A stretch of DNA of 64,000 bases. It comes from Collinsella aerofaciens ATCC 25986 (GTDB lineage Bacteria; Actinomycetota; Coriobacteriia; Coriobacteriales; Coriobacteriaceae). The notes beneath the pieces were generated by a model. That model had not been told where the DNA came from and did no database searches. It was given only the letters and a program-made list of their open reading frames with translations. The DNA lies in assembly GCF_010509075.1 (NCBI RefSeq), contig NZ_CP048433.1:1364001-1428000 (forward strand), given 5' to 3'. The position numbers and the translations under genes are program-made. Shown in pieces: positions 25,061-46,928 of this stretch. Within the stretch, counting starts at the first letter, position 1. Each line of letters opens with the position of its first letter.

Positions 25061-25121
25061 TTGGCAACCAAACGTCAAAAGCTACCATCGTTGCCAACCC
25101 ACCGACTCTTAGGAGCTTTGC

Positions 25122-26897: not shown

Positions 26898-26906
26898 GTA
26901 ACGCTC

Positions 26907-26940: not shown

Positions 26941-26967
26941 TCGATTTAGACGATTGGATATTTCATC

Positions 26968-28407: not shown

Positions 28408-28453
28408 CGGCTTGCGGGGTTACCCGCCCACATAACCTGTCCCCATTTCTCAA

Positions 28454-28496
28454 CCGGGGGCGGCACGTCACACGGCGCGCCGCCCCCGGCCTTTTT
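28454..28496 (+). terminator. Terminator of cassette 1
   Basis: CCGGGGGCGGC pairs perfectly with GCCGCCCCCGG and is followed by CCTTTTTG, 46 bases after the GH1 stop. Confidence 0.88.
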
Positions 28497-28516
28497 GGGC
28501 GGTTCGGGGTCCGTTT

Positions 28517-28573
28517 GTCTCAATCTGTAACATCTAGCCGAGTTTTTGGGTCCTAGCTGTTACAGATTGAGAC
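28517..28573. repeat. Paired 57-bp palindrome, locus 1 unit a
   Basis: Arms GTCTCAATCTGTAACA and TGTTACAGATTGAGAC flank a loop with inner CTAG/CTAG pairing and a TTTTT tract. The matching continues outward (CCGTTTG / CGAACAG). Confidence 0.88.
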
Positions 28574-28597
28574 GAACAGGATTGCTCTTTCCGAAGA

Positions 28598-28654
28598 ATC
28601 TAAATCTGTAACACGTAGCCCGCTTTTGACCGTCTACCTGTTACAAATCGAGAC
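28598..28654. repeat. Paired 57-bp palindrome, locus 1 unit b
   Basis: Second unit of the pair, starting 81 bases after unit a, with arms AATCTGTAACA and TGTTACAAAT and inner GTAG/CTAC pairing instead of CTAG/CTAG. Confidence 0.85.
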
Positions 28655-28668
28655 AAACGGAGTAGGAC

Positions 28669-29697
28669 CTAACCCCGTATGTCCCTAACAGTCGAGCGTT
28701 CGACCAGCGTGCTCGGCACATGAATCGCCTCGATAGACGAGCTCTCTCCAATCGCCGCCTCAAACGCAAGCTTACCGACACCGCGCAAATCAAATCGCAG
28801 CGTCGTCAGCCGATTGTGAGGAACAAGTCCCTCGAGTGCGTCGTCGATACCAACCACGCTCACGTCGTCGGGCACGGACAGGCCCGCGTTCTCGAGCGCG
28901 GCGATAACGCCCAGCGCCATCTGGTCATTTGCCGCAAGCACGGCAGTCGGCGCCTGCGACCCGCCGGCAAGCACCTCGGCCGCAATCCGCTCGCCCATGG
29001 CGTACCCACTGTCCGCACTCCAATCGCCACGCAGCATCGGAGCGGCATCGACATGAGCACGACCCAGCGTATCGCGCCAACCGGCCTCACGAAAACGCGA
29101 GGAAATCGAGTTTTCCGGACCCGCCACAAACCGCATATTCGAGTGACCATGTTCCAGCAGATAATTGGTCAACAGCTCGCACGAACCATACTGGTCGGAG
29201 TCGATCGTCGTGCAGCGCGGATGCGCATACATGGACAGGATGACCGTTCGCACTCCCGGCTGGGGAACAAACTCCTCAAAATCGGGAGCCATGCGGTTCA
29301 TGTTGAGAATCATGCCGTCGACGGGTCGCTCGACCATGCGGCGCGAGGCATCGGCAAGTGCATAGGGCTTGTCGCCGCCCATCTCGATCATAGTGACGGC
29401 AAAATCGTGCTCGCGCGCCGCTTGCATGATACCCTCGAGCGTCGCCAGGTTACCGACACGTGTGATGTTGTACATGCACAGGCCAATAGAACGATACGAC
29501 CCGCCGCGCAACGCCGCTCCAGCAAAATTGGGACGAAAGCCCAGCTCTTCCATGGCGGCCAGCACACGCTTGCGCGTCTTTTCCGTCACGTTGGGCATAC
29601 CGTTGACCACGCGAGACACAGTCTGGCGGCTCACGCCAGCGAGCGCCGCAACCTCTGCCGCGCTCGCCGAACGACCATTCCTTGTCTGCTGATCCAT
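28669..29697 (-). CDS. LacI-family repressor of sugar cassette 2
   Basis: 342 residues from ATG 29697. The helix-turn-helix reads SAAEVAALAGVSRQTVSRVVNGMPNVTEKTRKRVLAAMEELGF; sensor domain segments include STIDSDQYGSCELLTNYLLEHGH-like text and DDVSVVGIDDALEGLVPHNRLTTLRFD. The start is uncertain: a GTG nine bases further upstream has a better-placed GGAAGCAGG. It is divergent from the GH1-EIICB cassette at 30042-33427. Three operator-like sites lie in the shared region, one 61 bases upstream of its own start, so it probably represses the cassette and itself. Confidence 0.91.
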   Translation of the reverse strand: MDQQTRNGRSASAAEVAALAGVSRQTVSRVVNGMPNVTEKTRKRVLAAMEELGFRPNFAGAALRGGSYRSIGLCMYNITRVGNLATLEGIMQAAREHDFAVTMIEMGGDKPYALADASRRMVERPVDGMILNMNRMAPDFEEFVPQPGVRTVILSMYAHPRCTTIDSDQYGSCELLTNYLLEHGHSNMRFVAGPENSISSRFREAGWRDTLGRAHVDAAPMLRGDWSADSGYAMGERIAAEVLAGGSQAPTAVLAANDQMALGVIAALENAGLSVPDDVSVVGIDDALEGLVPHNRLTTLRFDLRGVGKLAFEAAIGESSSIEAIHVPSTLVERSTVRDIRG

Positions 29698-29757
29698 GCC
29701 TTCCACGCTAACCTGCTTCCCAACTATTCCCCGCGCCCATGGCGCATCGTACATACA

Positions 29758-29773
29758 TTGATAACGTGCTCAT
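29758..29773. promoter_or_regulatory. Candidate LacI-type operator, cassette 2, site 1
   Basis: TTGATAACGTGCTCAT shares the half GTGCTCAT with the two sites at 29890 and 29912 and lies just upstream of the LacI start. Confidence 0.62.
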
Positions 29774-29840
29774 GATACCCGAGCCATATACCACAACATG
29801 AAAACTTCTGTCAATCAAAACCGCTTACCGAACAAATACA

Positions 29841-29851
29841 ACCGTTCGCGG
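29841..29851 (+). promoter_or_regulatory. Shared ACCGTTCGCGG motif, cassette 2
   Basis: ACCGTTCGCGG, a one-base variant of the shared motif, 49 bases upstream of the cassette 2 operators. Confidence 0.5.
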
Positions 29852-29889
29852 CTGTTTGAAGTTGTTTTGTTTCTATACATCCCAGCCGG

Positions 29890-29905
29890 ATGTTAACGTG
29901 CTCAT
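29890..29905. promoter_or_regulatory. Candidate LacI-type operator, cassette 2, site 2
   Basis: ATGTTAACGTGCTCAT, half-sites ATGTTAAC and GTGCTCAT around a central CG. Confidence 0.7.
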
Positions 29906-29911
29906 TGTCAA

Positions 29912-29927
29912 ATGTTCACGTGCTCAT
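29912..29927. promoter_or_regulatory. Candidate LacI-type operator, cassette 2, site 3
   Basis: ATGTTCACGTGCTCAT, 22 bases (two helical turns) from site 2 and one base different from it. Confidence 0.7.
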
Positions 29928-30041
29928 TTTGGTTCTAATCATTTTAAGATAGTGTTTATCGGGCTTTTTCACCGCTGAACGCTAACCAGGGAGCCTCCTG
30001 AGCGCAAACGCACAATATCGAACAGCGAGACGAGAGGGTGT

Positions 30042-31490
30042 ATGCATATGTCTTTGCTAAACCGCGTACAGCAGCTGCCGAAGGGCTTTGTTTGGGGCGC
30101 CGCAACCGCCGCGTACCAAACGGAAGGTTCCACGAAGGTGGCAGGCAAGGGTAAGACCATGTGGGACGATTACCTTGTCGCCCAGGGTCGCTTTTTGCCC
30201 GACCCGGCCAGTGATTTCTACAACCGCTACGAGGAGGATATCCGCCTTTCTGCCGAGCATGGACTCAACGCCATTCGTGTGTCCATCGCCTGGACCCGCA
30301 TCTTCCCCAACGGCGACGATGCCGAACCCCTCGCCGAGGGCGTTAAGCACTACCACGAGCTGTTCGCCTGCTGCAAAAAGTATGGCGTCGAGCCCTATGT
30401 GTCCCTGCATCACTTTGACTCCCCCGCCGCCCTGTTCAACCAGGGCGACTGGCTCAACCGCAAGACCGTCGACGCCTATGTGCGCTATGCCGAGTTCTGC
30501 TTCCGCGAGTTCCGCGAGGTCAAGAATTGGTTCACCATCAACGAGCTCATCAGCCTCTCGCACTCCCAATACATCCAAGGCAACTTCCCGCCCAACCATC
30601 ACTTTGATGTGACGAGCGGCATCCAGAGCCAGCACAACGAGCTCGTTGCCCACGCCCGCGCCGTCAACCTGTATAAGGATCTTGACGAGACCGAGCACCT
30701 GGGCGGACGCATTGGCATGGTCAACGTCCTGACGCCGGCATATCCTGCCACCGACTCGCCCGCCGACCAGCACGCCGCCGACCTGTACAACGCCTTCTAC
30801 ACCGACTTCATCATGGACGGCGCCTTCCTGGGTCACTACTCCGCGCGCACCCTCTCACTCATCAACGAGATTCTGCGTGCCAACAACGCCACACTTACGG
30901 TTGAGGACAGCGACATGGAGGAGCTCGCCAAGGCGGCGCCCCGCAACGATATGTTCGGCCTCAACTACTATCAGTCGGCGTTTATCGCCGCCTACGATGG
31001 CGAGTCAACCAACAGCTTTAACGGCACCGGAGACAAGGGCACCTCGTGCTTTAAGTTTAAGGGCGTCGGGCAGCAGGTCGATATGCCGGGTATCCCCACC
31101 ACCGACTGGGATTGGCTCATCTACCCGCAAGGCCTCTACGACACGCTCAAGCACATCAGCGCCACCTATCCCAACCTCCCCGTCATCTATATCACCGAAA
31201 ACGGCCTGGGCCACAAGGACCCCGAGCCCGACGCAAACGGCATCGTCGCCGATCCCGAGCGCATCGACTTTGTCGACCAGCACATGGAGAAGGTGCTCCA
31301 GGCGCGCGCCGAGGGCGTCGACGTCCAGGGCTACTTTATCTGGAGCCTGCAGGACCAGTTCTCGTGGGCCAATGGCTATAACAAGCGCTACGGCCTGTTC
31401 TACATCGACTTCGACACGCAAAAACGCTACATCAAGCAGTCGGCACTCTGGTACAAGGAGCTCGCCGACACTATGGCGGACGCGCAGTAG
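30042..31490 (+). CDS. GH1 6-phospho-beta-galactosidase, cassette 2
   Basis: 482 residues of glycoside hydrolase family 1. Acid/base Glu168 is in WFTINE (Ile where the other two copies have Phe); the nucleophile is in YITENG; the phosphate-binding region SWANGYNKRYG is present. It is the most divergent of the three GH1 copies, with extra residues (DDAEPLAEG) near position 95. Gene order is reversed compared with cassettes 1 and 3: here GH1 precedes EIICB. Met1 or Met3 could start; GAGAGGG lies upstream. Confidence 0.93.
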   Translation: MHMSLLNRVQQLPKGFVWGAATAAYQTEGSTKVAGKGKTMWDDYLVAQGRFLPDPASDFYNRYEEDIRLSAEHGLNAIRVSIAWTRIFPNGDDAEPLAEGVKHYHELFACCKKYGVEPYVSLHHFDSPAALFNQGDWLNRKTVDAYVRYAEFCFREFREVKNWFTINELISLSHSQYIQGNFPPNHHFDVTSGIQSQHNELVAHARAVNLYKDLDETEHLGGRIGMVNVLTPAYPATDSPADQHAADLYNAFYTDFIMDGAFLGHYSARTLSLINEILRANNATLTVEDSDMEELAKAAPRNDMFGLNYYQSAFIAAYDGESTNSFNGTGDKGTSCFKFKGVGQQVDMPGIPTTDWDWLIYPQGLYDTLKHISATYPNLPVIYITENGLGHKDPEPDANGIVADPERIDFVDQHMEKVLQARAEGVDVQGYFIWSLQDQFSWANGYNKRYGLFYIDFDTQKRYIKQSALWYKELADTMADAQ

Positions 31491-31514
31491 CGCATCGCCT
31501 CGCTTTCCCCCGAG

Positions 31515-31556
31515 AAGGGAGCGGCCCTATGCGATACAAACCCAGCCGCTCCCCTC
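31515..31556 (+). terminator. Intercistronic hairpin between GH1 and EIICB, cassette 2
   Basis: GGGAGCGGC pairs with GCCGCTCCC around an 18-base loop, in the 176-base gap between the two genes. No T-run follows, so it is more likely a stabilising or processing structure. Confidence 0.5.
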
Positions 31557-31666
31557 TCTCCCCCTGGGACCGGCCCCGCCTGCACCCGGGCTTTTAGCAA
31601 GCGGGAGACCATATAGGTTTTCAACGTCCATGCCATTAAGATTTCATGCAAAGAGGAGCGTGAACT

Positions 31667-33427
31667 ATGGAATCGATCGTTAAGTTCTTGGAGAAAGGTC
31701 AGCCGTACTTCGACAAGGTCTCTAAGAACATCTACCTTCAGGCCATTAAAGACGGCTTTTTGGCAGCAATGCCCATTATCCTGTCTTCTTCTGTCTTCCT
31801 GCTCATTTCGACCCTGCCGGGCGTTGTCGCCACGGTCGGCGGCTTTACGCTGCCCGACTGGTGGAACGTCGACGTCGTGAACTTCTGCAACAAGGTTTAC
31901 AACTTCACGATGGGCGTCGTGGGCATCATGGTCGCCGGCACCACCGCAAGCGCGCTGACCGGCTCCAAGAACCGCCGCATGCCTGCCGGCAAGGCCATCA
32001 ACGCCACGAGCACCATGGTCGCCGCCATGTGCGCTATGCTCATCTTGGCCGTTACCCAGACGAGTGCCAAGATCGACGGCGCCGATGTCTCGGTGTTCTT
32101 TACCGACAACATGGGCACCAAAGGCCTGCTGAGCTCCTTTGTCGCCGCATTTGCCACGGTCAACATCTATGCCTTCTGCATTAAGCGAGACATCACCATC
32201 AAGCTGCCCAAAGAAGTCCCCGGCGCCATCGCCCAGAACTTCCGCGACATCTTCGCCTTCAGCTTCTCCATCCTGTTTGTCGCCGTCATCGACGTTATCT
32301 GCCGCACCTGCTTGGCCGTCCCGTTTGCCAACGTCATCTCCACGCTGGTGAGCCCGCTGTTCGCCGCTGCCGATTCCTACGCCGGCCTCGCCCTCATCTG
32401 GTTCATGATCCCGCTGTTCTGGTTCATGGGCATCCACGGCCCCTCGGTCGTTAAGCCTGCCCTCAACGCCGCGCTGTTTGGCAACATCACCACCAACCTC
32501 GCCACGCTGCAGGCCGGCGGTCACCCCGCCCTCGCCCTGACCGAGAACTTCGGTAACTACATCGGCGAACTCGGCGGCACCGGCGCCACGTTCATTGTCC
32601 CGATCATCTTCCTGCTCTTTATGCGCTCCAAGCAGCTCAAGGCCGTCGGCAAAGCCTCTGTCGTACCCGTGATGTTCGCCGTCAACGAGCCGCTGCTGTT
32701 CGCCGCGCCCATCATCCTCAACCCGTACTTCCTGATCCCGTTCCTGTTTGCCCCCGTGGCCAACGTCCTCATTGGTAAGTTCTTCATCGACTTTTTGGGC
32801 ATGAACGGCTTTATCTATGCCATGCCGTGGGCACTCCCCGGACCGATCGGCACCTTCATCGACACCAACTTCCAGCCGATCTCTCTGGTCCTGGTTGTCG
32901 TCCTGCTGGTCGTTGACTTCTTGATCTACTACCCGTTCTGCAAGGCCTACGACAACGTCCTGTGCAAGCAGGAGGCCGAGACCCTGGCCGAAGAAGAGGC
33001 CGAGGAGACCAAGGCCGTCAAGACCGCTGCCGCCCCCGCCGTTGAGGCTCCTGTTGTCGAGACCGCTTCTGCCACCGAGGCCTCCGCAGCTCCGTCCGCC
33101 CTTAAGGGCAAGGATCTGAGGGTTCTGGTTCTGTGCGCTGGCGCCGGCACCTCTGCACTGCTCGCCAACGCGCTTAAGGAAGGCGCCGACGAGCTGGGCA
33201 TCGACATTACCGCCAACGCCGGTGCCTACGGCAGCCACTACGCCATCATGGACCAGTACAACGTCATCGTCCTGGCTCCGCAGGTTCGCACCTATTACAA
33301 CGAGATGAAGGCCGACACCGACCGCCTGGGCATCACGCTGCTGTCGCCCAAGGGCAAACAGTACATCGACCTCACTAAGGATCCCAAGGGTGCCGTCGCC
33401 TGGATCGAGGAAAACCTCAAGGCATAA
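31667..33427 (+). CDS. PTS lactose-family EIICB, cassette 2
   Basis: 586 residues with the EIIC domain at about 1-430 (MESIVKFLEKGQPYFDKVSKNIYLQAIKDGF; GIHGPSVVKPAL; MFAVNEPLLFAAPIILNP), an acidic then alanine-rich linker, and an EIIB domain with Cys490 in LCAGAGTSALLANAL. It carries out transport with 6-phosphorylation of a galactoside or glucoside. AGAGGAG precedes the ATG. Very similar to cassette 3 EIICB in both domains (LAPQVRTYYNEMKADTDRLGI). A terminator and the second palindrome pair follow directly. Confidence 0.94.
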   Translation: MESIVKFLEKGQPYFDKVSKNIYLQAIKDGFLAAMPIILSSSVFLLISTLPGVVATVGGFTLPDWWNVDVVNFCNKVYNFTMGVVGIMVAGTTASALTGSKNRRMPAGKAINATSTMVAAMCAMLILAVTQTSAKIDGADVSVFFTDNMGTKGLLSSFVAAFATVNIYAFCIKRDITIKLPKEVPGAIAQNFRDIFAFSFSILFVAVIDVICRTCLAVPFANVISTLVSPLFAAADSYAGLALIWFMIPLFWFMGIHGPSVVKPALNAALFGNITTNLATLQAGGHPALALTENFGNYIGELGGTGATFIVPIIFLLFMRSKQLKAVGKASVVPVMFAVNEPLLFAAPIILNPYFLIPFLFAPVANVLIGKFFIDFLGMNGFIYAMPWALPGPIGTFIDTNFQPISLVLVVVLLVVDFLIYYPFCKAYDNVLCKQEAETLAEEEAEETKAVKTAAAPAVEAPVVETASATEASAAPSALKGKDLRVLVLCAGAGTSALLANALKEGADELGIDITANAGAYGSHYAIMDQYNVIVLAPQVRTYYNEMKADTDRLGITLLSPKGKQYIDLTKDPKGAVAWIEENLKA

Positions 33428-33458
33428 GACGCTGACGCCACCTGCCGCTCGCAGACAA

Positions 33459-33499
33459 AAAATGGCCCGTGCATCGATGCGTGATGCGCGGGCCATTTT
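33459..33499. terminator. Terminator of cassette 2
   Basis: AAAATGGCCCG...CGGGCCATTTT, a long stem with flanking A and T tracts, 32 bases after the EIICB stop. Confidence 0.85.
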
Positions 33500-33526
33500 G
33501 TTTAGACCGCACCCGTCCTCCTGTTC

Positions 33527-33583
33527 ATCTCAATCTGTAACAACTAGCTGAGTTTTTGGATCCTAGCTGTTACAGATCGAGAC
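33527..33583. repeat. Paired 57-bp palindrome, locus 2 unit a
   Basis: ATCTCAATCTGTAACA and TGTTACAGATCGAGAC arms, inner CTAG/CTAG, loop with TTTTT. Located 100 bases after the cassette 2 end. Confidence 0.88.
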
Positions 33584-33606
33584 AAACAGAACGCCCGAGC
33601 AGAAAT

Positions 33607-33663
33607 ATCTCAATCTGTAATATTTAGCTGAGTTTTTCGGTCCTAACTGTTACAGATTGAGAC
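33607..33663. repeat. Paired 57-bp palindrome, locus 2 unit b
   Basis: ATCTCAATCTGTAATA and TGTTACAGATTGAGAC arms, starting 80 bases after unit a; ends 18 bases from the LacI stop codon. Confidence 0.86.
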
Positions 33664-33680
33664 GAACGGGCCGAAAAACC

Positions 33681-34682
33681 CTACGCCCGCAAGTCCTTTA
33701 CGCTGGAACGCTCGACCAACACGCCCGACACAAGCGTGCGACTTCTGGAGCTCGGGGCTTCCAAACCCGCAACGACCTCGTTAAGCGCACGGATGCCCAG
33801 CTCGCGGTGGCGAAACTTCACCGACGTCAGAATCGAGTTGGGAATCGTCTTGTAGAGCTCATCGTCGAAGCCGATCACGGACACGTCGTCGGGCACACTG
33901 AGTCCTTTGTCATGTAGAGCCATCATCACACCATTTGCCATGCAGTCGTTAGCAGCGAGGATCGCCGTGCAATCGGGTTTATCGGCAAGCACAAGGCCCG
34001 CGGCATAGCCACTATCCGCATTCCAATCGCCTTGCAGAGGCTCGGACGGCTCAATGCCACGTGCCTCGAGCGCCGCACGCCAACCTTTCATACGGCACTG
34101 GCTCGACAGCGACTCTTTCTTACCAGAGACGAAATACACGTTCTTGTGCCCGCGATTTAAGAAGTGCTCGCACGCCATGCGCGCACCACCCTCTTGATCG
34201 TCACTAACGGTAGAGCAGGTAGGATGTTCCATCGGCGTGATAATCACCGTCTTGAGGTCTTTCGGTGCCTCAAACGTATCAAAGTCATCGACCATCTGAC
34301 GCAGGTTGAAGATCATGCCATCAACAGGCAGCTGCGACATCCTGCGCGCTGCGTCGGCAAGGGTCATCTTCTCCCCCGCGCACTTCTTAATCATCGTGAG
34401 CGCAAAGCCGCGTTCTTCGGCGGCATCGGCGATACCGTCAATCATGTCCACGGCGCCGCCCGACAAGTGGAACATCACCACGCCGATGCACCCGTAACGG
34501 CCCAACTTGAGTGAACGCGCGGCAAAGTTAGTTCGAAACCCGAGCGCCTCCATTGCGGAATGGACCTTATCGCGTGTCGACTCTCGCACGCTATCGGGCT
34601 CGTTGATCACGCGCGACACCGTCTTGAGAGAAACGCCCGCAGCAACTGCCACATCGTTCATTGAGACATTTTTCTTGTCCAT
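33681..34682 (-). CDS. LacI-family repressor of sugar cassette 3
   Basis: 333 residues from ATG 34682. The helix-turn-helix reads VSMNDVAVAAGVSLKTVSRVINEPDSVRESTRDKVHSAMEALGF; the sensor includes STVSDDQEGGARMACEHFLNRGH and DDVSVIGFDDELYKTIPNSILTSVKFR. It is the most divergent of the four LacI proteins, and its operators (AATGACAAC/GTTGTCATT) also differ most. It is divergent from the EIICB-GH1 cassette at 34967-38242 and likely represses it. The start may lie at a nearby GTG, since GGAGAAG is 12 bases from this ATG. Confidence 0.91.
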   Translation of the reverse strand: MDKKNVSMNDVAVAAGVSLKTVSRVINEPDSVRESTRDKVHSAMEALGFRTNFAARSLKLGRYGCIGVVMFHLSGGAVDMIDGIADAAEERGFALTMIKKCAGEKMTLADAARRMSQLPVDGMIFNLRQMVDDFDTFEAPKDLKTVIITPMEHPTCSTVSDDQEGGARMACEHFLNRGHKNVYFVSGKKESLSSQCRMKGWRAALEARGIEPSEPLQGDWNADSGYAAGLVLADKPDCTAILAANDCMANGVMMALHDKGLSVPDDVSVIGFDDELYKTIPNSILTSVKFRHRELGIRALNEVVAGLEAPSSRSRTLVSGVLVERSSVKDLRA

Positions 34683-34785
34683 CGTTGCCACTACTTCTCC
34701 AGTCGGTTTTGCATCGCTTGTTTTTTGCGTTCTAGCATACACTACCTGCCCGACTGACAAATCAGCCGTTTATCGGACAATATCG

Positions 34786-34796
34786 ACCGTTCACCC
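34786..34796 (+). promoter_or_regulatory. Shared ACCGTTCACCC motif, cassette 3
   Basis: ACCGTTCACCC, a one-base variant of the shared motif, 26 bases upstream of the cassette 3 operators. Confidence 0.5.
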
Positions 34797-34821
34797 GTAA
34801 ATCCTTGTTGCTCTTCCAAAA

Positions 34822-34839
34822 ATGTCTTACGTTGTCATT
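34822..34839. promoter_or_regulatory. Candidate LacI-type operator, cassette 3, site 1
   Basis: ATGTCTTACGTTGTCATT, right half identical to site 2, left half degenerate; 23 bases from site 2. Confidence 0.68.
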
Positions 34840-34844
34840 AACGA

Positions 34845-34862
34845 AATGACAACGTTGTCATT
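34845..34862. promoter_or_regulatory. Candidate LacI-type operator, cassette 3, site 2
   Basis: AATGACAACGTTGTCATT is a perfect 18-bp palindrome with a central CG, about 105 bases before the EIICB start. Confidence 0.8.
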
Positions 34863-34966
34863 TCGCAATGCCTTCCCTAAGCAGGAAGGTTTCCGGGCAG
34901 TCCTGACCATCCATCGACGACCAGTTCCATCCACATGCATCGCGCATCAAGTAGCAAAGGAGCTCT

Positions 34967-36745: not shown

Positions 36746-36760
36746 GTTCCTCCCTCTGTT

Positions 36761-36787
36761 GGTGCCCGGATCCCCAGTTCGGGCACC
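36761..36787 (+). terminator. Intercistronic hairpin between EIICB and GH1, cassette 3
   Basis: GGTGCCCG pairs with CGGGCACC 15 bases after the EIICB stop. It occupies the same position as the hairpin in cassette 1 but has a different sequence and no T-run. Confidence 0.6.
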
Positions 36788-36820
36788 CTCCCTATTCGTA
36801 TCCCACAGAAAGGATGACTC

Positions 36821-38242: not shown

Positions 38243-38264
38243 TTTAAGCCGCGTACCCCCTGCC

Positions 38265-38308
38265 GGCCGCATACGAATCCCTCCACGGGTTCGCATGCGG
38301 CCTTTTTT
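38265..38308 (+). terminator. Terminator of cassette 3
   Basis: GGCCGCATACGAATCC pairs with GGGTTCGCATGCGGCC and is followed by TTTTTTG. Confidence 0.9.
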
Positions 38309-38336
38309 GTTTTTGGTGAGCCCGTGCGGGCCGTTT

Positions 38337-38393
38337 ATCTCGATCTGTAACATCTAGCAGGGATTTTCAATCCTAACTGTTATAGATTTAGAC
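38337..38393. repeat. Paired 57-bp palindrome, locus 3 unit a
   Basis: ATCTCGATCTGTAACA and TGTTATAGATTTAGAC arms, slightly degenerate, 95 bases after the cassette 3 GH1 stop. Confidence 0.85.
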
Positions 38394-38416
38394 GAACGGG
38401 CGACCAGGGCTGAAAG

Positions 38417-38473
38417 ATCTCAATCTGTAACACGTAGCCCACTTTTAACCGTCTAACTGTTACAGATCGAGAC
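38417..38473. repeat. Paired 57-bp palindrome, locus 3 unit b
   Basis: ATCTCAATCTGTAACA and TGTTACAGATCGAGAC arms, starting 80 bases after unit a; loop like that of locus 1 unit b (cgtagcccacttttaaccgtcta). Confidence 0.86.
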
Positions 38474-38527
38474 AATAAGATAGTCAAATCCGAACTTTCC
38501 AAGCAGTTATAAAGCATGGTTTCTAGT

Positions 38528-38602
38528 TTTCGGTATCACGAACATACTTTCGGTATCATTTAATGATATTATGATATCGAAAATATGTTCGTGATACCGA
38601 AA
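38528..38602. promoter_or_regulatory. Four-half-site palindromic operator of the fic gene
   Basis: A perfect 19-bp inverted repeat TTTCGGTATCACGAACATA (38528-38546 and 38584-38602) encloses a second one, TTTCGGTATCAT (38548-38559) with ATGATATCGAAA (38571-38582). The element TTTCGGTATCA therefore occurs four times, two per strand. The right end merges with the fic ribosome binding site AAAGGAG, so a bound protein would block expression. Confidence 0.82.
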
Positions 38603-38610
38603 GGAGCCGC

Positions 38611-39843
38611 ATGCGCCAGTTCGATTACACCACAGTCCCAGCGGAACTCGAAGCAACTCCAATCACCAACCTCCTCCTCTCGATACGCGAGCATAAAGGC
38701 CGTCAGCTTGCTCTGAGTCAAGTCAAACCCGAGCTTCTATCGTCCCTAATGGAGGAGGCTAAGATCCAAAGCACCCGGTCCTCCAACGGACTTGAAGGAA
38801 TTGTTACCACCCAAAAAAGACTCAAAGCGATCATGGCGTATTCCGCCAAGCCAAGCTCCCGCGCAGAGGAAGAAATTGCTGGATACCGAGATGTGCTGTC
38901 GCTTATTCACGAGCAACACGATTCCATTCCCGTAACGCCATCGGTCATTCTGCAGTTGCATCGTGACCTCATGGCGCACACGGCAATCTCGTATGGAGGC
39001 CATTGGAAAGATAGCGATAACGAAATCGTCTCCATTGACGATCAAGGAAATCGATTTGTGCGCTTTAGGCCCCCTTCGGCCCTAGCAACCCCGGGACTTA
39101 TTAAAGAAGCCTGCCAGTCCCTCAACGATGCTTTATCTCGCCAAGTTTGCGATCCCCTCCTTATATCGCTCCGCTTTATCTTCGATTTTGTTAGCATTCA
39201 TCCCTTCAACGATGGCAATGGCAGGATGAGCCGGCTCCTTACAACGCTGCTGCTCGAAAAGACTGGATACGACGTTGCGCGTTACATCAGCATCGAACGA
39301 CTTATTGAAGACAACAAAGCGCTTTACTACAACGCTCTCGCTGCAAGCTCCACTGGATGGAATGAAAATCAAAACACCGAAGTACCCTTTATCCGTTTCA
39401 TGCTCGGAACAACCCTGGCCGCCTACCGACAGCTCGAGCAGCGTACCTTAATTGAATCAAGCACTCGTCCCATGTCGAAGCAAGCGCGCATCGCCGTTCT
39501 ATTTCAACAGAGACCCGGCGTCATTAAGAAATCCGACATCCGATCCAACTGCCCCGATATCAGCGAGGTCACCGTTAAACGAACCCTCGGTCAGCTTGTT
39601 AGTTGCAGCGCAATCGAAAAAACAGGAGCGGGTCGTTCGACAGGCTACATACTCAAAGACGTCCATGCTCTAGAACTATTCTTGCAATCCACAATACCCG
39701 ATAGCGAGGCCGCAATAACAAAAGAGGCTCCAAAGGATAAGCTCCTTGAACGTATAAACCACGCCGAGGATGAAAGCAAAGAGGGGCTCTATGAAGACTA
39801 TGATTCATTCTCAAGGGACATAAAGACGAAATACGGAGTCTAG
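38611..39843 (+). CDS. Fic-domain protein with C-terminal winged helix
   Basis: 410 residues. The Fic core motif HPFNDGNGRMSR is at 197-208, matching HxFx(D/E)GNGRxxR with the catalytic His197. An N-terminal inhibitory motif of the (S/T)xxxE(G/N) type, SNGLEG, is at 58-63, so activity may be self-restrained (class II). Residues 285-355 (RIAVLFQQRPGVIKKSDIRSNCPDISEVTVKRTLGQLVSCSAIEKTGAGRSTGYIL) look like a winged helix. Such proteins transfer AMP to target proteins, and some bind DNA. The palindrome overlapping its ribosome binding site suggests autoregulation. Codon use is less GC-biased than the neighbours, consistent with acquisition. No separate antitoxin gene is evident. Confidence 0.9.
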   Translation: MRQFDYTTVPAELEATPITNLLLSIREHKGRQLALSQVKPELLSSLMEEAKIQSTRSSNGLEGIVTTQKRLKAIMAYSAKPSSRAEEEIAGYRDVLSLIHEQHDSIPVTPSVILQLHRDLMAHTAISYGGHWKDSDNEIVSIDDQGNRFVRFRPPSALATPGLIKEACQSLNDALSRQVCDPLLISLRFIFDFVSIHPFNDGNGRMSRLLTTLLLEKTGYDVARYISIERLIEDNKALYYNALAASSTGWNENQNTEVPFIRFMLGTTLAAYRQLEQRTLIESSTRPMSKQARIAVLFQQRPGVIKKSDIRSNCPDISEVTVKRTLGQLVSCSAIEKTGAGRSTGYILKDVHALELFLQSTIPDSEAAITKEAPKDKLLERINHAEDESKEGLYEDYDSFSRDIKTKYGV

Positions 39844-40036
39844 TCATATCTCAGAATAGCCTCATCCTTGTTGCTCAAAGTTATTTGCGCGTCATTGTAA
39901 AGCGGTACCCCCGCGCCGGCAGGGGGGTGTTCCTATAGTTTTGTCAACTGGGCAATGCTGTTTTCGAGATTGAATCGCGACATGCTAACGCCAGGCCTTT
40001 CGGCCGATGGGCTCCAATCTGTTCGGAGCGCTTCGA

Positions 40037-41194
40037 CTAGGCGGCGTAGGGCACCCTGTCCCGCATGATCGCGTAGATGACCTTCAGCCTCTTTCGTGCC
40101 AGCGCCTTGAGCGCCTTGCCGTGCGGCATGCCCCGCTCTCGGCACCTAGCGTAGTAATCGCCCCATCTTCCCTCTGTCCGGGTAAGGCAGTTGCACGAGA
40201 ATATGAGCAGGTTCTTCAGCCTCTTGTTGCCTTGGCGCGATGCCGTCACCGAGGAGATCGAGGTCCCCGACTGGCGGTTGCGCGGCGCCAGGCCGCAGTA
40301 CGACGCGAGCCTGTCGTGGCTTGGGAAGTCTTCGATATCTATGGAGATCGCGAGCTCGGAAGCGGTTTTGGGGCCGATCCCCGGCACCGTCAGGAGGCAT
40401 CGGTAGGTATCGTCGCCCTCGAGGAGGGCGGATATCTCCGCCGTGATCACATCGATCTCCGCCGAGTTCTCGGAGATCCTGCGCGCGAGCAGCCTCACCG
40501 CCCGGTCCTCGGCGGCGATGGCCGCCGCGTCCGGCCTTGTCGAGGAGGCCGTCGAGCGGACGAGGGCCTCGATCTTGCCGCGCGCCGCCCCGCGCGTGAG
40601 CGCCGCCGCCCTGCGGGGCCCGGCGTCGGCCACCGACCAGGCCCCGCCGAGGGATGCCATGAGCCTCAGCTGGGGACCGTCGGACAGGTCGACCAACGCC
40701 TCGAAGGCGGGGCACGATTCCAGCAGGATGCTGCGCAGCCGGTTCTTGCTCCTGGTGTTTTCGCAGGTCAGGAAGTTTCTCTGGGCGGCCAGCGCCCTCG
40801 CCGCCGCGACCGTCGGGCCCGGATCCCCGACCGGCAGGAGTGCGTCGGGGATGCCCAGCGCCGTCTTCGCGATGACCATTGCGTCCCGCTCGTCGGTCTT
40901 GGCGTCGCCGGCGAAGAGCCTGGCGGCCCCGTGTGCCGCGAGTCCCGGCAGGTACGCCGCCGACATCCCGGCCGCCTTGGCGCGGGCGAGCGCGAGGGCG
41001 CCTATGTTGCGCGACTGGTCGACGACCACGAGCGCGTCGGGGAAGCGGCCGAACAGCGAGTCCAGATCGCCCTCCCTGTTCGCGACGGGGGCGCTCAGCA
41101 GTATCTCGCCGTCCCGGGTCGCGACGCATGCCCAATGGGACAATTTCCCGACATCGAGCCCGATGACGGCTTCCGGCATTCTAGGTGGTGCCAC
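40037..41194 (-). CDS. IS110-family transposase
   Basis: 385 residues from GTG 41194, which has GGAGG seven bases upstream. The N-terminal RuvC-like DEDD domain begins VIGLDVGKLSHWACVA and includes KTDERDAMVIAKTAL; the C-terminal transposase_20 domain has LLTVPGIGPKTASELAISI, SYCGLAPRNRQSG and the serine-containing NKRLKNLLIFSCNCL. Full length for the family, with no frameshift seen, so it may be active. Codon use is very GC-rich compared with the fic gene beside it. Family members recombine DNA under guidance of an element-encoded bridge RNA. Confidence 0.93.
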   Translation of the reverse strand: MAPPRMPEAVIGLDVGKLSHWACVATRDGEILLSAPVANREGDLDSLFGRFPDALVVVDQSRNIGALALARAKAAGMSAAYLPGLAAHGAARLFAGDAKTDERDAMVIAKTALGIPDALLPVGDPGPTVAAARALAAQRNFLTCENTRSKNRLRSILLESCPAFEALVDLSDGPQLRLMASLGGAWSVADAGPRRAAALTRGAARGKIEALVRSTASSTRPDAAAIAAEDRAVRLLARRISENSAEIDVITAEISALLEGDDTYRCLLTVPGIGPKTASELAISIDIEDFPSHDRLASYCGLAPRNRQSGTSISSVTASRQGNKRLKNLLIFSCNCLTRTEGRWGDYYARCRERGMPHGKALKALARKRLKVIYAIMRDRVPYAA

Positions 41195-41466
41195 GGTGTT
41201 ATCCTCCAATCGGTAGGCCGATCGGAACCCCTCCCTGCGACACCCACATTACCTGGCCGTGGCGCTTGCGCCCGGCAGTTTCCTATCAGTCGTCCGGAGC
41301 GGCGAGCGCCCCCGGTGGCAACACCCCCCGGGCCCTCTACGGGGCAGGGGCAGACGGCCATCCGGAGGCGCCCGATCGGCGGCCCCTCGGGGCTTGCCCG
41401 TATCGTAGGCAATGCGCCGAATGCTCGCCATCGAAATTTATCGGTGGCCCACTTCAGACTGTAATG
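41195..41466 (-). ncRNA. Candidate bridge-RNA region of the IS110 element
   Basis: About 270 bases between the transposase start and the right end hold no gene and are rich in paired GC tracts (for example ggtaggccgatcgg, gccccgtagagggcccgggg read on the minus strand, and CCGATCGGCGGCCCC). In IS110 elements of the type with a long upstream non-coding end, the bridge RNA that pairs with target and donor DNA is encoded here. The assignment rests on position and structure potential only; the guide loops were not resolved. Confidence 0.4.
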
Positions 41467-41469
41467 GGC

Positions 41470-41815
41470 AGATGTATCGCCTGCCGATCCTGCTGGAGTC
41501 GGCAATCAGATAGCGCGTATCGGCCTTGCTAAAGGCGAGCTGCTGGATGCGGCCCTCGTCCATGTTGGACGTGGACACGTCGCCGTCCAGAATGCCGTTG
41601 GCACCGATAAACGCCGTGTCAATCCCTAGTGCGCGCAGGGCATCCTCGGCCATGGGGCCCACAAAGGCGGCGGTGCGGCGGCGGTACATGCCGCCCACCA
41701 GGCACAGCTCGCAATCCTCGCGCGCCTCGAGCAGGCTAAAGGCCGAAAGCGAATTGGTCACATAGATGAAAGGCAGCTTGTCGGTGACTCGGAGAGCGCC
41801 AATGCGACCTCACGA
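41470..41815 (-). pseudogene. Remnant of a DeoR-family repressor gene
   Basis: The translated text VTNSLSAFSLLEAREDCELCLVGGMYRRRTAAFVGPMAEDALRALGIDTAFIGANGILDGDVSTSNMDEG...LIADSSRIG matches the central and C-terminal sensor part of the intact DeoR at 45960-46724 almost residue for residue. The N-terminal helix-turn-helix is missing upstream (a stop codon is soon met), and the C-terminal 35 or so residues are replaced by IS110 sequence. It cannot make a working repressor. Confidence 0.88.
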
Positions 41816-41853
41816 CGGTTGCGCTCATTGTCTCAATTAGATACTCAACGAAA

Positions 41854-41888
41854 TACGGCCCCGCAGCTCAATAAGCTGCAGGGCCGTA
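41854..41888. terminator. Terminator of the fourth EIICB gene
   Basis: TACGGCCCCGCAGCT pairs with AGCTGCAGGGCCGTA with one mismatch, 36 bases beyond the EIICB stop on the minus strand. Confidence 0.7.
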
Positions 41889-41923
41889 CTATACACCGAC
41901 GAATCAACGACGGAGTGCATCCA

Positions 41924-43618
41924 CTATTTGGCCAGCTCCTGAACGATCCAGTCAATTGCACCTTCGGGATCGTTGGTAAGGTCGATATACTCCTTGCCCC
42001 TTGTGGTGAGCAGTTTAATTCCAAGGCGATCGGTATCGGCCTTCATAGCGTCATAGTACATGCGTGCCTGGGGTGCCAGAACAATCACGTTGTACTGATC
42101 CATCGTCTCATAGTGGCTTCCGTACGCACCGGACTGAGAAACCAGATCGATACCCTTAGCAGCGGCACCTTCGCGAAGAGCATTTGCCAAGAGAGTCGAA
42201 GTGCCGGCACCCTGGCAAAGCACAAGCACGCGGATCTGCTCCGCCTTGTCCTTTACCGCCTCGAGAGCTTTTGCGACATTTTCCTGTGCGGCAATAGCAT
42301 CTGCATCCGAGGTTCCTGCAGTCTCCTTTGCAGACTCTTCCAAACAAAGCTGATGGTCATACGCCTTGCAGAACGGATAGTAAATCACAAAGTCAACGAC
42401 CAACAGCACTGCCATCAATACGAGAGAACGCAGATCGAGACCCGTGGTGAGGAATGCACCGATTGGGCCGGGAAGCGCCCACGGCATGGTATACATGGGG
42501 GCGTTCATTCCAATGACGTCAATGAAAAATTTACCGATAATGGCGTTGACCATAGGAGCCACTAGGAAGGGCACGAACATATAGGGATTGAGAACAATCG
42601 GCATACCGAAGATAACGGGCTCGTTAACTCCAAAAATCACCGGGATAATCGATGCCTTGCCCATGGCTTTAAGCTGCTTGGAGCGCATAAACATGATCAG
42701 GATAATAGGAACGATGAACGTGCAGCCAGAACCGCCCAGACCGCCGATGAAGCTTGTAAAGTCCTGCGTGAGAGCAATTGACGGGCGTCCACCTGCTTGG
42801 AAAACCTCAAGATTGGTAACGGTATTGCCGTAGAGCGCAGCATTGATCGGACTCATGACAACCGAAGCACCGTGGATACCCATAAATTGGAAAAGTGCGA
42901 CCGCGCCTTCGATAAGCGCCATGCCAGGATAGGTGTCAACCGCGGAGAACAGCGGCGAGATGAGAGCGGATACCAAATTGGCGAACGGCACAGCAAGCAG
43001 CTTGCGGCTCGCAAGATCGATAAAAGCGCACGCAAGGATCGAAAACCCAAATGCAAAGATATCGCGAAAACTCTGCGCAATAGAGCCAGGGACCTCTTTG
43101 GGGAGCTTGATCGTCACATTATGGCTAATGCACACCTTATAGATATTAACGGTCAAGAATGCGGCTACGAACGCAGCGAGAAAACCCTTAGTTCCCATAT
43201 AGCCGGTTTCAAAAACAGATGTATCTGCTCCGCCAATCGAGACAACATCGTTCGTCACCGATAGCAAGAGCATGCCGCACATGGCACAAACCATGCACGA
43301 GGTGGGGTTGAGAGATTTACCCGAAGGCATGCGACGGTTCATCGACATGGCAAGTGAGCTCGCCGTGGTGCCGGCCACCATAATGCCAAGAAGTCCCATG
43401 GTATATGCATAGATTTTATTGAAGAAATCCAGCACCTCAGACGGAAGCGTGATGCCTACATAGGCAGGGAGCGTCGAAAGAAGAAGGAACAGGCTCGAGA
43501 ACAGCACAATTGGCATATTCGAGAGAAAGCCATCCTTAATCGCCACCAGATAAATGTTCCTCGAGATTTTGTCGAAGAGAGGCTGGTGTTTTTCAAGGAA
43601 TTTGACGATAGCGTCCAT
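41924..43618 (-). CDS. PTS lactose-family EIICB, GntR-linked cassette
   Basis: 564 residues from ATG 43618 (AAAGGATG upstream). EIIC domain at about 1-420 (MDAIVKFLEKHQPLFDKISRNIYLVAIKDGF; GIHGASVVMSPINAALYGN in place of GPSIVEP; IFGVNEPVIFGMPIVLNP), a short linker, and an EIIB domain with Cys468 in LCQGAGTSTLLANAL. The changes in both substrate-site segments set it apart from the three cassette EIICB proteins and suggest a different disaccharide. No GH1 gene accompanies it. It is divergent from an unrecognised protein and a GntR regulator. It presumably depends on the EIIA at 23207. Confidence 0.93.
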   Translation of the reverse strand: MDAIVKFLEKHQPLFDKISRNIYLVAIKDGFLSNMPIVLFSSLFLLLSTLPAYVGITLPSEVLDFFNKIYAYTMGLLGIMVAGTTASSLAMSMNRRMPSGKSLNPTSCMVCAMCGMLLLSVTNDVVSIGGADTSVFETGYMGTKGFLAAFVAAFLTVNIYKVCISHNVTIKLPKEVPGSIAQSFRDIFAFGFSILACAFIDLASRKLLAVPFANLVSALISPLFSAVDTYPGMALIEGAVALFQFMGIHGASVVMSPINAALYGNTVTNLEVFQAGGRPSIALTQDFTSFIGGLGGSGCTFIVPIILIMFMRSKQLKAMGKASIIPVIFGVNEPVIFGMPIVLNPYMFVPFLVAPMVNAIIGKFFIDVIGMNAPMYTMPWALPGPIGAFLTTGLDLRSLVLMAVLLVVDFVIYYPFCKAYDHQLCLEESAKETAGTSDADAIAAQENVAKALEAVKDKAEQIRVLVLCQGAGTSTLLANALREGAAAKGIDLVSQSGAYGSHYETMDQYNVIVLAPQARMYYDAMKADTDRLGIKLLTTRGKEYIDLTNDPEGAIDWIVQELAK

Positions 43619-43686
43619 AACACATCCTTTCATGATTCCCGGGCACACAACGATTTATCCGGACTCAACCGTCGTCGTCCCCGTTT

Positions 43687-43710
43687 GTATCCACTTATGT
43701 AAGTGAATAC
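43687..43710. promoter_or_regulatory. Palindrome, candidate GntR operator 1
   Basis: GTATCCACTTA, two bases, TAAGTGAATAC: 10 of 11 positions symmetric, 69 bases upstream of EIICB. Confidence 0.6.
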
Positions 43711-43910
43711 GTTCTTGTGCGAAATGTAATATCATTTGCGCGATTTGTCATAACCAATTCTTTTTCCGCTTTGTCGATATGTCAAGAATTCAAATACTTA
43801 TTCGGTGAACGGTAGTTGATTAATATAAGGTTTTCCCAGCTAAAGGCTATTTTTTCCGAGCAGTACAATAAGCTTGCAACCGTTCACCGATTGGATATAA
43901 CATATTGAAT

Positions 43911-43928
43911 ATATTGTTGTAACAATAT
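43911..43928. promoter_or_regulatory. Palindrome, candidate GntR operator 2
   Basis: ATATTGTTGTAACAATAT, perfect 8-bp arms around GT, 46 bases before the gene at 43975. Confidence 0.6.
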
Positions 43929-43974
43929 TAGAGACAATGTCACAAGCCTGTCGTTCTAGTCAAAGGAAGTAACA

Positions 43975-44895
43975 ATGCCCAAACGATTACTGAACATGTC
44001 CGCATCCGATTTTGCCGCCACGTCACCCATGGATCTAAAGCAGGCAATTCTGGCTTCCGAGGGACGTACCATCATGGCGGAAAACGTACCCTCTTCCCAA
44101 TTTCTCGGCGGCGTTACTAATGCAGAAATCGAACGTGCCGCAGGTGCCGACCTGCTTCTGTTTAACGCGCTCGATGTGTTCGATCCAGTTATTGCCGGTA
44201 TTCCAGATGATCTCAATGAAAACCCGGTCACTTGGGTGAAGCGAGCATGCGGAAGGCCCATTGGCGTCAATCTGGAGCCAGTTGATAACGAGGCAGAGAT
44301 GTCTGAATCCCGTACGGAAATCCCCATGGGTCGTCGCGTCTCTCCCAAAACCTTAGAAAAGGCTAACGAACTCGGATTTGATTTTATCTGCCTGACGGGC
44401 AACCCTGGAACCGGCGTCTCCAACGATGCAATCGCCCATTCGATTAAACTCTCCAAAGAGCATTTCAATGGCCTGGTCATAGCCGGAAAAATGCATGGAG
44501 CGGGCGTTGCGGAACCTGTCATGACGCTCGAAATTGCGCGCAAGTTTGTTGACCTCGGCGTCGATATCCTTCTCGTGCCAGCCCCCTACACCGTCCCTTG
44601 CTTCCAAGAAGCAGACCTGCGCGCCATCGTAGACTTTGTACGATCCCACAACGTAGGCAAGTCAATTGAAGAGAAGGTTCTCGTCATGGCGGCGAACGGG
44701 ACGAGTCAAGACTCCTGCGACAGCGAGACCATTAAGAAAATAGGCCTTGCAGCAAAAGCAGCCGGCGCTGACCTCCAACATATCGGGGACTCCATGAACG
44801 GTATTTGCCTGCCCCAGAATATCTTCACGCTCGGACAAGCCCTTCGTGGATACAGGCATCAGATCGTCATGCTGAGCCGCTCTGTGATACGTTAA
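43975..44895 (+). CDS. Conserved protein of unknown function, possible TIM barrel
   Basis: 306 residues; I do not recognise an assigned function. Alternating strands and helices (RTIMAENVPSSQFL, GADLLLFNALDV, PIGVNLEP, GFDFICLTGNPGTG, GLVIAGKMHGAG, GVDILLVPAPYTVPCF, VLVMAANGTSQD, GADLQHIGDSM) fit a beta/alpha barrel, with glycine-rich loops that could hold a phosphate. AAGGAAG precedes the ATG. It is first in an apparent two-gene unit with the GntR regulator and divergent from EIICB, so a role in handling the imported phospho-sugar is inferred. A lyase, isomerase or epimerase is possible. Confidence 0.85.
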   Translation: MPKRLLNMSASDFAATSPMDLKQAILASEGRTIMAENVPSSQFLGGVTNAEIERAAGADLLLFNALDVFDPVIAGIPDDLNENPVTWVKRACGRPIGVNLEPVDNEAEMSESRTEIPMGRRVSPKTLEKANELGFDFICLTGNPGTGVSNDAIAHSIKLSKEHFNGLVIAGKMHGAGVAEPVMTLEIARKFVDLGVDILLVPAPYTVPCFQEADLRAIVDFVRSHNVGKSIEEKVLVMAANGTSQDSCDSETIKKIGLAAKAAGADLQHIGDSMNGICLPQNIFTLGQALRGYRHQIVMLSRSVIR

Positions 44896-44949
44896 GGTTA
44901 CCTTGCCCACGTTACATCCCGACTGAGGCAACCATCAGGTATAACCAAC

Positions 44950-45687
44950 ATGCAAACTGAGGCTCTAATGCTCGATACACACGAAAAACGGCCACTCTAT
45001 TTACAGCTCACCGACGCGCTGCTCAAGCAGATCGTCGATGAATATCAAGCAGACGATAAACTTCCAACAGAAATGGAACTCTGCGACGAATACGCCGTAA
45101 GCAGAACAACCGTCCGACTTGCCATGAGTGAGCTGGAGCGTCGTGGAAGTATCTATCGAATCCAAGGTAAGGGGTCGTTTGTTGCACCGAAACGCGTTAG
45201 CGAGCTCAATTCACTTTTAGACTTTGACTTTGCAAGCCATTGCGATGGCGTTGATCCAGATGCCATTACCAAACATTTCGGCGGCCTCACATCAGGTCGT
45301 CCAATTTCCGTAATGATGCTCCAGCAATTTGGATGTCAAAGTCGCGATGAAATTCAGCGTCTTGAATTGACCTACGAACTTGAAGGTAGCTTCATAGGCG
45401 CTGATACGTTCTTCATTTCAAAGTCGCGCGTTCCGAATAACCAGTTAGATTTTCAGGCATTTAGCAGAATCATGGACGACTTGTCCAAGTCTATCCAATC
45501 TGTTAGGGAAAGCTATAGAGCACGTCAGCTTAGCGATTCCGAAGCCAGAAATTATGGTGTTGCAAAACTTCCGGTCATCGAACTGACTCATTATGCTTAC
45601 GACTCCGGAGGCAAACTAATCTCAATTGTCTGCCGCACCGTCTTAACTGGGCGAATCCCTTATCAAAACTTTATTTTCAAGTCCTAA
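44950..45687 (+). CDS. GntR-family regulator with UTRA domain
   Basis: 245 residues. The N-terminal winged helix reads [68 protein letters not shown]. The C-terminal part has the UTRA fold that binds phospho-sugars ([69 protein letters not shown]). It is 54 bases behind the unknown protein and likely controls that gene and the divergent EIICB. Codon use is more AT-rich than in the lac cassettes, as for its neighbour. Confidence 0.9.
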
Positions 45688-45702
45688 TGTTCTTTTTCTT
45701 TT

Positions 45703-45759
45703 GTCTCGATCTGTAACACGTAGCCGAGTTTTTAAGTCCTAACCGTTACAGATCGAGAC
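45703..45759. repeat. Paired 57-bp palindrome, locus 4 unit a
   Basis: GTCTCGATCTGTAACA and CGTTACAGATCGAGAC arms, starting 16 bases after the GntR stop codon. Confidence 0.87.
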
Positions 45760-45783
45760 AAACAAGGTAGACCCCGCCGAATT

Positions 45784-45840
45784 GTCTCAATCTGTAACAC
45801 TAAGACCGGTTTTGGACGTCTAGATGTTACAGATTGAGGC
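45784..45840. repeat. Paired 57-bp palindrome, locus 4 unit b
   Basis: GTCTCAATCTGTAACA and TGTTACAGATTGAGGC arms, starting 81 bases after unit a. Confidence 0.86.
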
Positions 45841-45959
45841 GATTTGATAGTGGAGTCCTCATTTGCGCGTCATATCGCGTAGCGCTGACGCGCTGGTTTC
45901 CACAATGACAGGAGGTAAAAGTCCTCCCGCATCGCCCGTTGGCAATCCCGTAGCGCTAG

Positions 45960-46724: not shown

Positions 46725-46928
46725 GATGAGTCCTCGCTGTTCCACGCTCACGTCATTTAAACAATAACGAACAAATTGTATCAGACTCGCGCGCGTCAGA
46801 AATGAACGCCCGCACAGCTCCAATCATCACTTTTTTGAGAAAAATATCCCCTGCTTTAGTGGGGTGTAGTGATAATCTCGCCTGTTCGCGCTACAGTTTG
46901 TCGGAAATACCTCGATGTTAGGAACCAA

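Follow-up and report, generated by a model that had tools for sequence, protein, structure and literature searches.

Repeat arrays and gene cassettes in the window

The window analyzed here is a 64,000-nucleotide stretch of the genome of Collinsella aerofaciens ATCC 25986 (contig NZ_CP048433.1, positions 1,364,001 to 1,428,000; G000:C1:1364001-1428000, where G and L numbers are our handles for genomes and fetched loci). It carries four arrays of an inverted repeat that lie among genes for sugar uptake through the phosphotransferase system (PTS). The repeat unit consists of two inverted 15-bp arms separated by 25 bp (TCTCRATCTGTAACA - 25 bp - TGTTACAGATYGAGA), and successive units follow each other every 80–81 bp. 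The arrays, the resident genes and the two gene blocks, referred to as cassettes I and II, are arranged as follows:

26968..28407, plus strand: GH1a, left resident neighbour of array 1
28518..28653: array 1, units 28518-28572 and 28599-28653, period 81
28654..33527: cassette I, with a LacI repressor (28669-29754, minus), GH1 (30042-31490, plus) and PTS EIIBC (31667-33427, plus)
33528..33662: array 2, units 33528-33582 and 33608-33662, period 80
33681..38242: resident block between the cassettes, with LacI2 (33681-34760, minus), PTS (34967-36745, plus) and GH1, here GH1b (36821-38242, plus)
38338..38472: array 3, units 38338-38392 and 38418-38472, period 80
38433..45957: cassette II, whole block, ending with array 4 and about 120 bp
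38611-39843, plus strand: Fic gene of cassette II
40037-41209, minus strand: IS110 element of cassette II, not in L043, L096 and L103
about 41438-41761, minus strand: DeoR-like fragment of cassette II
41924-43618, minus strand: PTS EIIBC of cassette II
43975-44895, plus strand: DUF7916 gene of cassette II
44950-45687, plus strand: GntR gene of cassette II
45704..45839: array 4, units 45704-45758 and 45785-45839, period 81
45960..46823, minus strand: DeoR regulator, right resident neighbour

A first-pass annotation of the window had described four loci with two units each, whose starts lie 81, 80, 80 and 81 bp apart. This description was reproduced, except that the starts had been placed one base early: the arms begin at 28518/28599, 33528/33608, 38338/38418 and 45704/45785, while the spacing was correct. 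The reported distance of 16–110 bases from a preceding forward-strand gene also held, the values being 110, 100, 95 and 16 bases from the stops at 28407, 33427, 38242 and 45687. A probable long inverted repeat lies between array 3 and the Fic gene (38514-38614), where sub-threshold microRNA-family matches were obtained on both strands.

The whole 2.46-Mb genome was found to contain 42 units in 17 arrays, which hold one (one array), two (nine), three (five) or four units (two), together with one half unit near position 1052559. Strict pairing is therefore a property of the window only, as 9 of the 17 arrays are paired. These numbers far exceed chance: the arm with up to two mismatches gave 86 matches (43 on each strand) and its reversed control none, a few of the two-mismatch matches being of a kind that chance could produce. 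When three mismatches were allowed in the unit core, 42 matches were obtained against 0 for the control. Of 490 unit matches in the loci fetched for this count, 482 have a loop of 25 bp, and the period between neighbouring units was 80 (170 pairs), 81 (122), 79 (8) or 78 bp (1), that is, 80 or 81 bp in 292 of 301 pairs, with overlapping and repeated loci kept in these counts. In the window genome the loops of units within one array differ on average at 11.9 of 25 bases, compared with 12.4 between arrays and 17.6 after shuffling. As units within an array differ as much as those of different arrays, the arrays are not recent tandem duplications.

Constraint on the arms

To what extent the arms are kept as a sequence or as a stem was examined with 405–406 distinct units, which were drawn from related genomes and hence are not independent. 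The results showed that the arm columns vary independently of each other: columns 5/51 are paired at a frequency of 0.76–0.77 (0.75–0.76 expected) and columns 4/52 at 0.75 (0.75 expected). Most inner columns pair below expectation, including 16/40 (0.24 against 0.39–0.40), 21/35 (0.25 against 0.35) and 23/33 (0.19–0.22 against 0.35–0.44), whereas 18/38, 19/37 and 20/36 pair about as often as expected and 26/30 a little more often (0.46–0.49 against 0.42–0.43). This under-pairing persisted in the 405 units after the asymmetric, TTT-centred loop had been set to one orientation. The proposal that inner stems change together so that pairing is maintained thus rested on few copies and did not survive, there being no covariation in the larger set.

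Substitutions were then counted in 338 unit pairs, taken as orthologous when their loops differed at no more than 8 sites and the pair showed some difference. Changes amounted to 364/10140 positions in the arms (3.6%), 843/8450 in the loop (10.0%) and 623/4784 in the outer spacer (13.0%), so that the arms change about threefold more slowly than the loop; columns 4, 5, 51 and 52 hold most of the arm changes. To judge from these alignments, selection acts on arm sequence and not on pairing, and the slow change of the arms relative to the loops without selection on pairing suggests that the unit is a putative protein-bound double-stranded DNA site.

Six units tested as single-stranded DNA fold better than most of their shuffles (z −1.8 to −7.6). 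Terminator-like sites in 28300-46000 numbered 10, below the shuffles (16.4), and none spans a unit; one of them (28496-28513) precedes array 1, its tail running into the first arm. A search of 28000-46500 against Rfam gave no match at gathering score, and a weak match over the array at 33519-33591 (E 0.57) is at chance level.

Gene blocks are present or absent between arrays

Comparison with related genomes revealed that both cassettes are lacking as blocks in relatives. Cassette I (28654-33527) is missing in L204 (G039), L205 (G023) and L039, in which GH1a is followed by one array and then by LacI2; array 2 is similar in its loops to the one array present in L039 and L205, and less clearly to that in L204. 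Cassette II is missing in L204, L205, L087, L092, L095 and L149, where one array lies between GH1b and DeoR, and in L204 and L205 this array comprises a full unit plus half of another. Stretches of about 290 bp that align with cassette II in genomes free of it (86–88% identity) belong to the DeoR gene, a relative of which is part of the cassette.

Where present, the cassettes are more similar between genomes than the genes beside them. Cassette I is 99.0–99.8% identical to the window in ten loci of eight genomes, compared with 95.4–97.0% on the GH1a side (six) and 92.5–95.8% on the LacI2 side (seven); cassette II is 97.7–99.0% identical in four genomes (L103 lacking Fic), compared with 93.1–95.8% on the GH1b side. 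At a resolution of about 100 bp, the left switch of identity falls inside array 1, where unit 1 averages 95.6% and unit 2 99.6% in six genomes, followed by 99.3–100%; L054 has 99 and 97 at this array. The right switch falls at array 2, the last 100 bp before it being 96.1% and the array itself 84.2/82.8% identical in seven genomes. Array 4 is 97–100% identical in L103, like cassette II itself.

Array 3 is followed by at least three different contents among the genomes compared. The third of these was found in C. aerofaciens TSDC17.2-1.1, which is 96.6% identical to window positions 20593-38432 and carries restriction-modification, ABC-three-component and toxin-antitoxin genes at this place. 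Its homology to the window stops at 38432, where the left arm of unit 2 has its final base, and that of G039 and G023 at 38433. In all three genomes homology resumes at 45946-45958, beside the DeoR stop codon (45946 in TSDC17.2-1.1). As the collection holds one genome per species, the contrast in identity between cassettes and flanks points to exchange between diverged species, and we conclude from these comparisons that the blocks were passed between species after species divergence, with joints at the arrays.

The borders of exchangeable cassettes proposed earlier are thus supported for both testable cassettes of the window, and further loci agree. In a 400-kb stretch of the window genome, breaks of synteny, defined as gaps of at least 400 bp, affected 8 of the 10 intergenic gaps with an array and 30 of the 178 without one relative to G039 (Fisher p=5e-5), and 8 of 10 and 43 of 178, respectively, relative to G023 (p=5e-4); these tests are not independent, as one cassette touches two gaps and G039 and G023 are related. 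The further cassettes at arrays in this stretch encode a 378-aa protein without Pfam match (case III), FHA/kinase/DUF6273 (case IV), GmrSD restriction (case VI) and an iron alcohol dehydrogenase (case VII). The empty unit of case III looks like the product of a plain crossover within the right arm. Among the flank clusters, 28 of 76 had more than one partner, and the sole link between loci that was noticed (cluster 55) is an element of the insertion sequence (IS) type IS21 in G023. The cassettes stay at their own locus, a pattern more in keeping with homologous exchange than with promiscuous site-specific insertion.

Chromosomal settings and distribution of the arrays

The association with sugar genes is mainly confined to the window. 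The other 13 arrays of the genome lie mostly beside other genes, several of them core genes by Pfam; one has glycogen phosphorylase and a MalK-like ATP-binding cassette (ABC) gene on its two sides and another adjoins a DeoR-type regulator, and further neighbours are aconitase, ClpB, peptide chain release factor 3 (RF3) and DXS. A sugar-specific element was rejected on account of these many kinds of neighbours. With both neighbours called, 163 arrays comprised 65 in convergent, 44 in divergent and 54 in tandem gaps, none overlapping a called gene; these orientations come from a crude home-made gene caller, which overlooked, at the least, the window's Fic and GntR genes. Divergent gaps with Pfam-named neighbours in the window genome are gltB/Nramp, DEAD helicase/P-type ATPase, DAO oxidase/zinc ribbon, DJ-1/EamA and GntR/RF3. 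The operator of one regulon was rejected because 65 of the 163 arrays lie in convergent gaps by this caller. The best DnaA match is at 1,734,018, and by eye the arrays lean weakly to that half of the genome.

The 186 arrays collected, among which the same place is repeated in some cases, fell into only 22 flank clusters, which indicates that arrays are inherited at fixed loci. In 43 genomes of the genus, 26–68 units were present in 22, one unit in three and none in 18, and the reversed pattern gave none. Multiple arm matches were confined to the genus of the window in a set of 39 genomes, 15 of which belong to other genera in the order, and 119 of 120 loci among the matches listed in a pattern scan are titled Collinsella, the remaining one being 'uncultured Coriobacteriaceae'. 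In array-free genomes, the orthologous gaps upstream of RF3 and downstream of DXS contained no such array and some other repeats. Other palindromic repeats lie upstream of RF3 in L162, L165, L167 and L171, the last with eight GTTGCTAAGCA-type copies in two orientations.

No phage record matched the repeat, and plasmid records yielded one Collinsella record. The 900-kb record NZ_OY725717.1, named 'plasmid 6', looks like a part of a chromosome, as it contains topoisomerase I, tmk, hypAB and tatC. A phage element was rejected, as the phage records gave no match and one viral contig (L159) was found whose left kilobase matches bacterial loci. A search of open-licence PMC full text, covering titles and the openings of abstracts, returned nothing on this repeat, and the passages searched in PMC3733652 make no mention of Collinsella or its relatives.

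Candidate recombinases and transposases

Matches to PF00589 occur in all 43 genomes, and among the matches listed only two look universal in array-bearing genomes; by size and score these two near-universal proteins look like XerC and XerD. The window genome and at least eight others have a 328-aa frame of a tyrosine recombinase that contains a single in-frame TAG (G000:C1:1081812-1082339), and in two similar matches the TAG lies in a frame of different length.

A serine recombinase of about 200–222 aa (G000:C1:1061813-1062412, minus strand, L211) lies beside a gene taken by eye for RNase R. At 86–100% identity it was detected in 21 of the 22 genomes with arrays and in none of the 21 without this trait; it is split over two contigs in G043 and missing in G052, which is 72% complete. 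Full-length homologues at 58–69% identity are present in 6 of the 21 array-free genomes, and the co-occurrence with arrays is confounded by descent, because the trait follows one clade. Directly upstream of the gene lies a palindrome, AAACCTGTCCC(T)TTTTGGCAGGTTT, unlike the array arms, which is probably the recombinase's own site. This second palindrome family occurs at G000:C1:1062435, 1211546 and 1282376 and in weaker copies.

Y1_Tnp genes, the family of the transposases associated with repetitive extragenic palindromic (REP) sequences, occur in 37 of the 43 genomes compared within the genus. The four in the window genome (96, 674, 707 and 810 kb) all lie more than 100 kb from any array, the nearest arrays being at 211, 398 and 1036 kb, and no REP-associated transposase was found adjacent to an array of this genome. 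Two of these genes (282-aa frames) are flanked by inverted repeats of their own, one of the GGGGACAGAC type (L200:1433-1483 and 2420-2470; L201:1425-1459 and 2311-2345).

The parent of a miniature inverted-repeat transposable element (MITE) was sought among unpaired arms in 2.68 Mb of fetched loci, with overlaps counted twice. By inspection and without protein search, no autonomous element with the same ends was recognised among the 30 unpaired of 1083 arms. They were explained as half units, as arms at N or locus ends, as paired arms read in inverse, as chance matches or as units split by an IS21-type element, and a MITE parent was rejected for the loci scanned. The IS21-type element (ends TGTTAGCGCC/GGCGCTAACA) lies inside array units in G023 (L250 about 10760-13150; L209:10004 and 14694).

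Discussion

On balance, we consider it probable that the arrays are protein-bound recombination joints for gene blocks at about 20 intergenic loci in one Collinsella clade. Each unit would be a double-stranded protein site with two inverted 15-bp half-sites 25 bp apart, and units stacked at 80–81 bp would form arrays inherited at about 20 intergenic loci. A gene block would be acquired, lost or swapped between species together with one array, and one joint or more would fall within an array; since the block moves with one array, an empty locus would keep one array and a filled locus usually two. We infer that a protein binds the arms and guides or provokes the exchange, and any proposal for its identity is of the same kind.

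Several observations weigh against this explanation. The points where homology stops do not by themselves map crossovers, and alignments can be extended by the conserved arms. When only gaps of at least 250 bp were compared, breaks occurred at 7 of 9 array gaps and 23 of 77 others relative to G039 (p=0.0076), and at 7 of 9 and 34 of 78 relative to G023 (p=0.055). Two of the array breaks are IS insertions, namely at the array at 1155764, which has a transposase-type helix-turn-helix gene on its left, and in case V, assigned to the IS21 type from its ends and a DnaA-model match. The second joint often falls outside the array: in cases II, IV, VI and VII it is displaced by 50–120 bp from the array of one partner, and the right joint of TSDC17.2-1.1 lies beside the DeoR stop, with only a lone arm about 670 bp before it. 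Arrays alignable on both sides showed no significant excess of identity jumps (p=0.38 for 3 arrays, 0.18 for 4), no cassette was found at a different array locus, IS element aside, and no array-linked recombinase was identified. Moreover, the arms may have another primary job, because recombination alone does not readily account for the constraint at every array.

In an alternative explanation, which we regard as possible though on the whole unlikely, the arrays are passive. They would be sites of a chromosome-organising or insulating DNA-binding protein, and cassettes would collect there since the gaps tolerate insertion and the repeats supply short homology for recombination of the RecA type. 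The arm constraint, which was pooled over all orthologous groups, the occurrence in convergent, divergent and tandem gaps alike, the fidelity of cassettes to their own locus and the simple right-arm crossover suggested by case III all agree with it. However, identity switches in or at array 2, which is only 82–84% identical, and not in the kilobases of flanking genes at 92–97%, and synteny breaks are enriched at arrays over other gaps.

It is doubtful that the arrays are the dedicated sites of a scattered, integron-like cassette-exchange system, in which a recombinase of the clade, with the serine recombinase as the candidate, inserts, removes or swaps blocks at some 20 reserved places. A dispersed integron, with the arrays as attC-like sites of a site-specific recombinase, appears improbable. 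As in the attC and Vibrio cholerae repeat (VCR) systems, a cassette here is one or more genes plus one inverted-repeat site and the empty locus keeps one; in cases I and III a filled locus equals the empty one plus genes and a single array, case II comes close to this, and the cargo includes defence-type genes (GmrSD and the restriction-modification island). Yet attC sites depend on folded hairpins, whereas the arms here are conserved as sequence with no selection on pairing. The arrays are also spread over about 20 loci, no cassette occurs at two of them, and no integron integrase was recognised among the PF00589 matches listed, judged by size and score, the near-universal ones being those taken for XerC and XerD.

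Mobile palindromes spread by a REP-associated Y1 transposase (RAYT), such as REP doublets forming hairpins (REPINs) or bacterial interspersed mosaic elements (BIMEs), are a very improbable explanation. The likeness to BIMEs noted earlier holds for appearance, that is, regularly spaced inverted repeats, and fails for compensatory changes and for RAYT adjacency in the window genome. REPINs, as described in PMC3116915, share the two inverted, near-invariant short ends, the variable spacer, the intergenic position and the regularly spaced clusters, and Y1_Tnp is common in the genus. In contrast to the REPINs and BIMEs of that account, the loop of the arrays is exactly 25 bp, units within an array have diverged as far as those of different arrays, the loci are conserved, compensatory changes are lacking, no RAYT lies beside an array of the window genome, and two of its Y1 genes are flanked by other inverted repeats. 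Least credible are elements acting as RNA (terminators, protectors of mRNA 3′ ends or small RNAs), since, for all the favourable folding of the six units, an RNA hairpin was rejected for lack of covariation and little inner pairing, terminators were rejected because arrays also occur in divergent gaps and no T-run follows the arms, as the first-pass annotation had held for ordinary terminators, and Rfam gave nothing above chance.

Among systems of other bacteria, the neisserial dRS3 repeats and neisserial intergenic mosaic elements (NIMEs) also form intergenic arrays of short inverted repeats, to which a role in promoting recombination is ascribed. The Collinsella repeat is like them in this arrangement and differs in its fixed 25/25–26 spacing, its position at cassette borders and its unrelated sequence. 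In the minimal mobile elements of Neisseria, as PMC3082526 defines them, a given pair of conserved genes encloses different whole-gene cassettes from strain to strain. Collinsella loci likewise hold different cassettes between the same conserved genes, but their joints lie in or near the repeat array, not within the flanking conserved genes. In short, the repeat looks REPIN-like, its logic is that of integron cassettes, and its outcome is that of minimal mobile elements.

Collinsella is a common genus of the human gut. If the arrays are indeed reserved joints, they would explain the entry point of a part of the variation in gene content of Collinsella, including cassettes for sugar uptake, defence and other functions. 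The borders of cassettes would then be predictable from sequence, and the arrays would offer natural landing sites for genetics. Furthermore, the rigid geometry of the half-sites makes the putative binding protein directly searchable.

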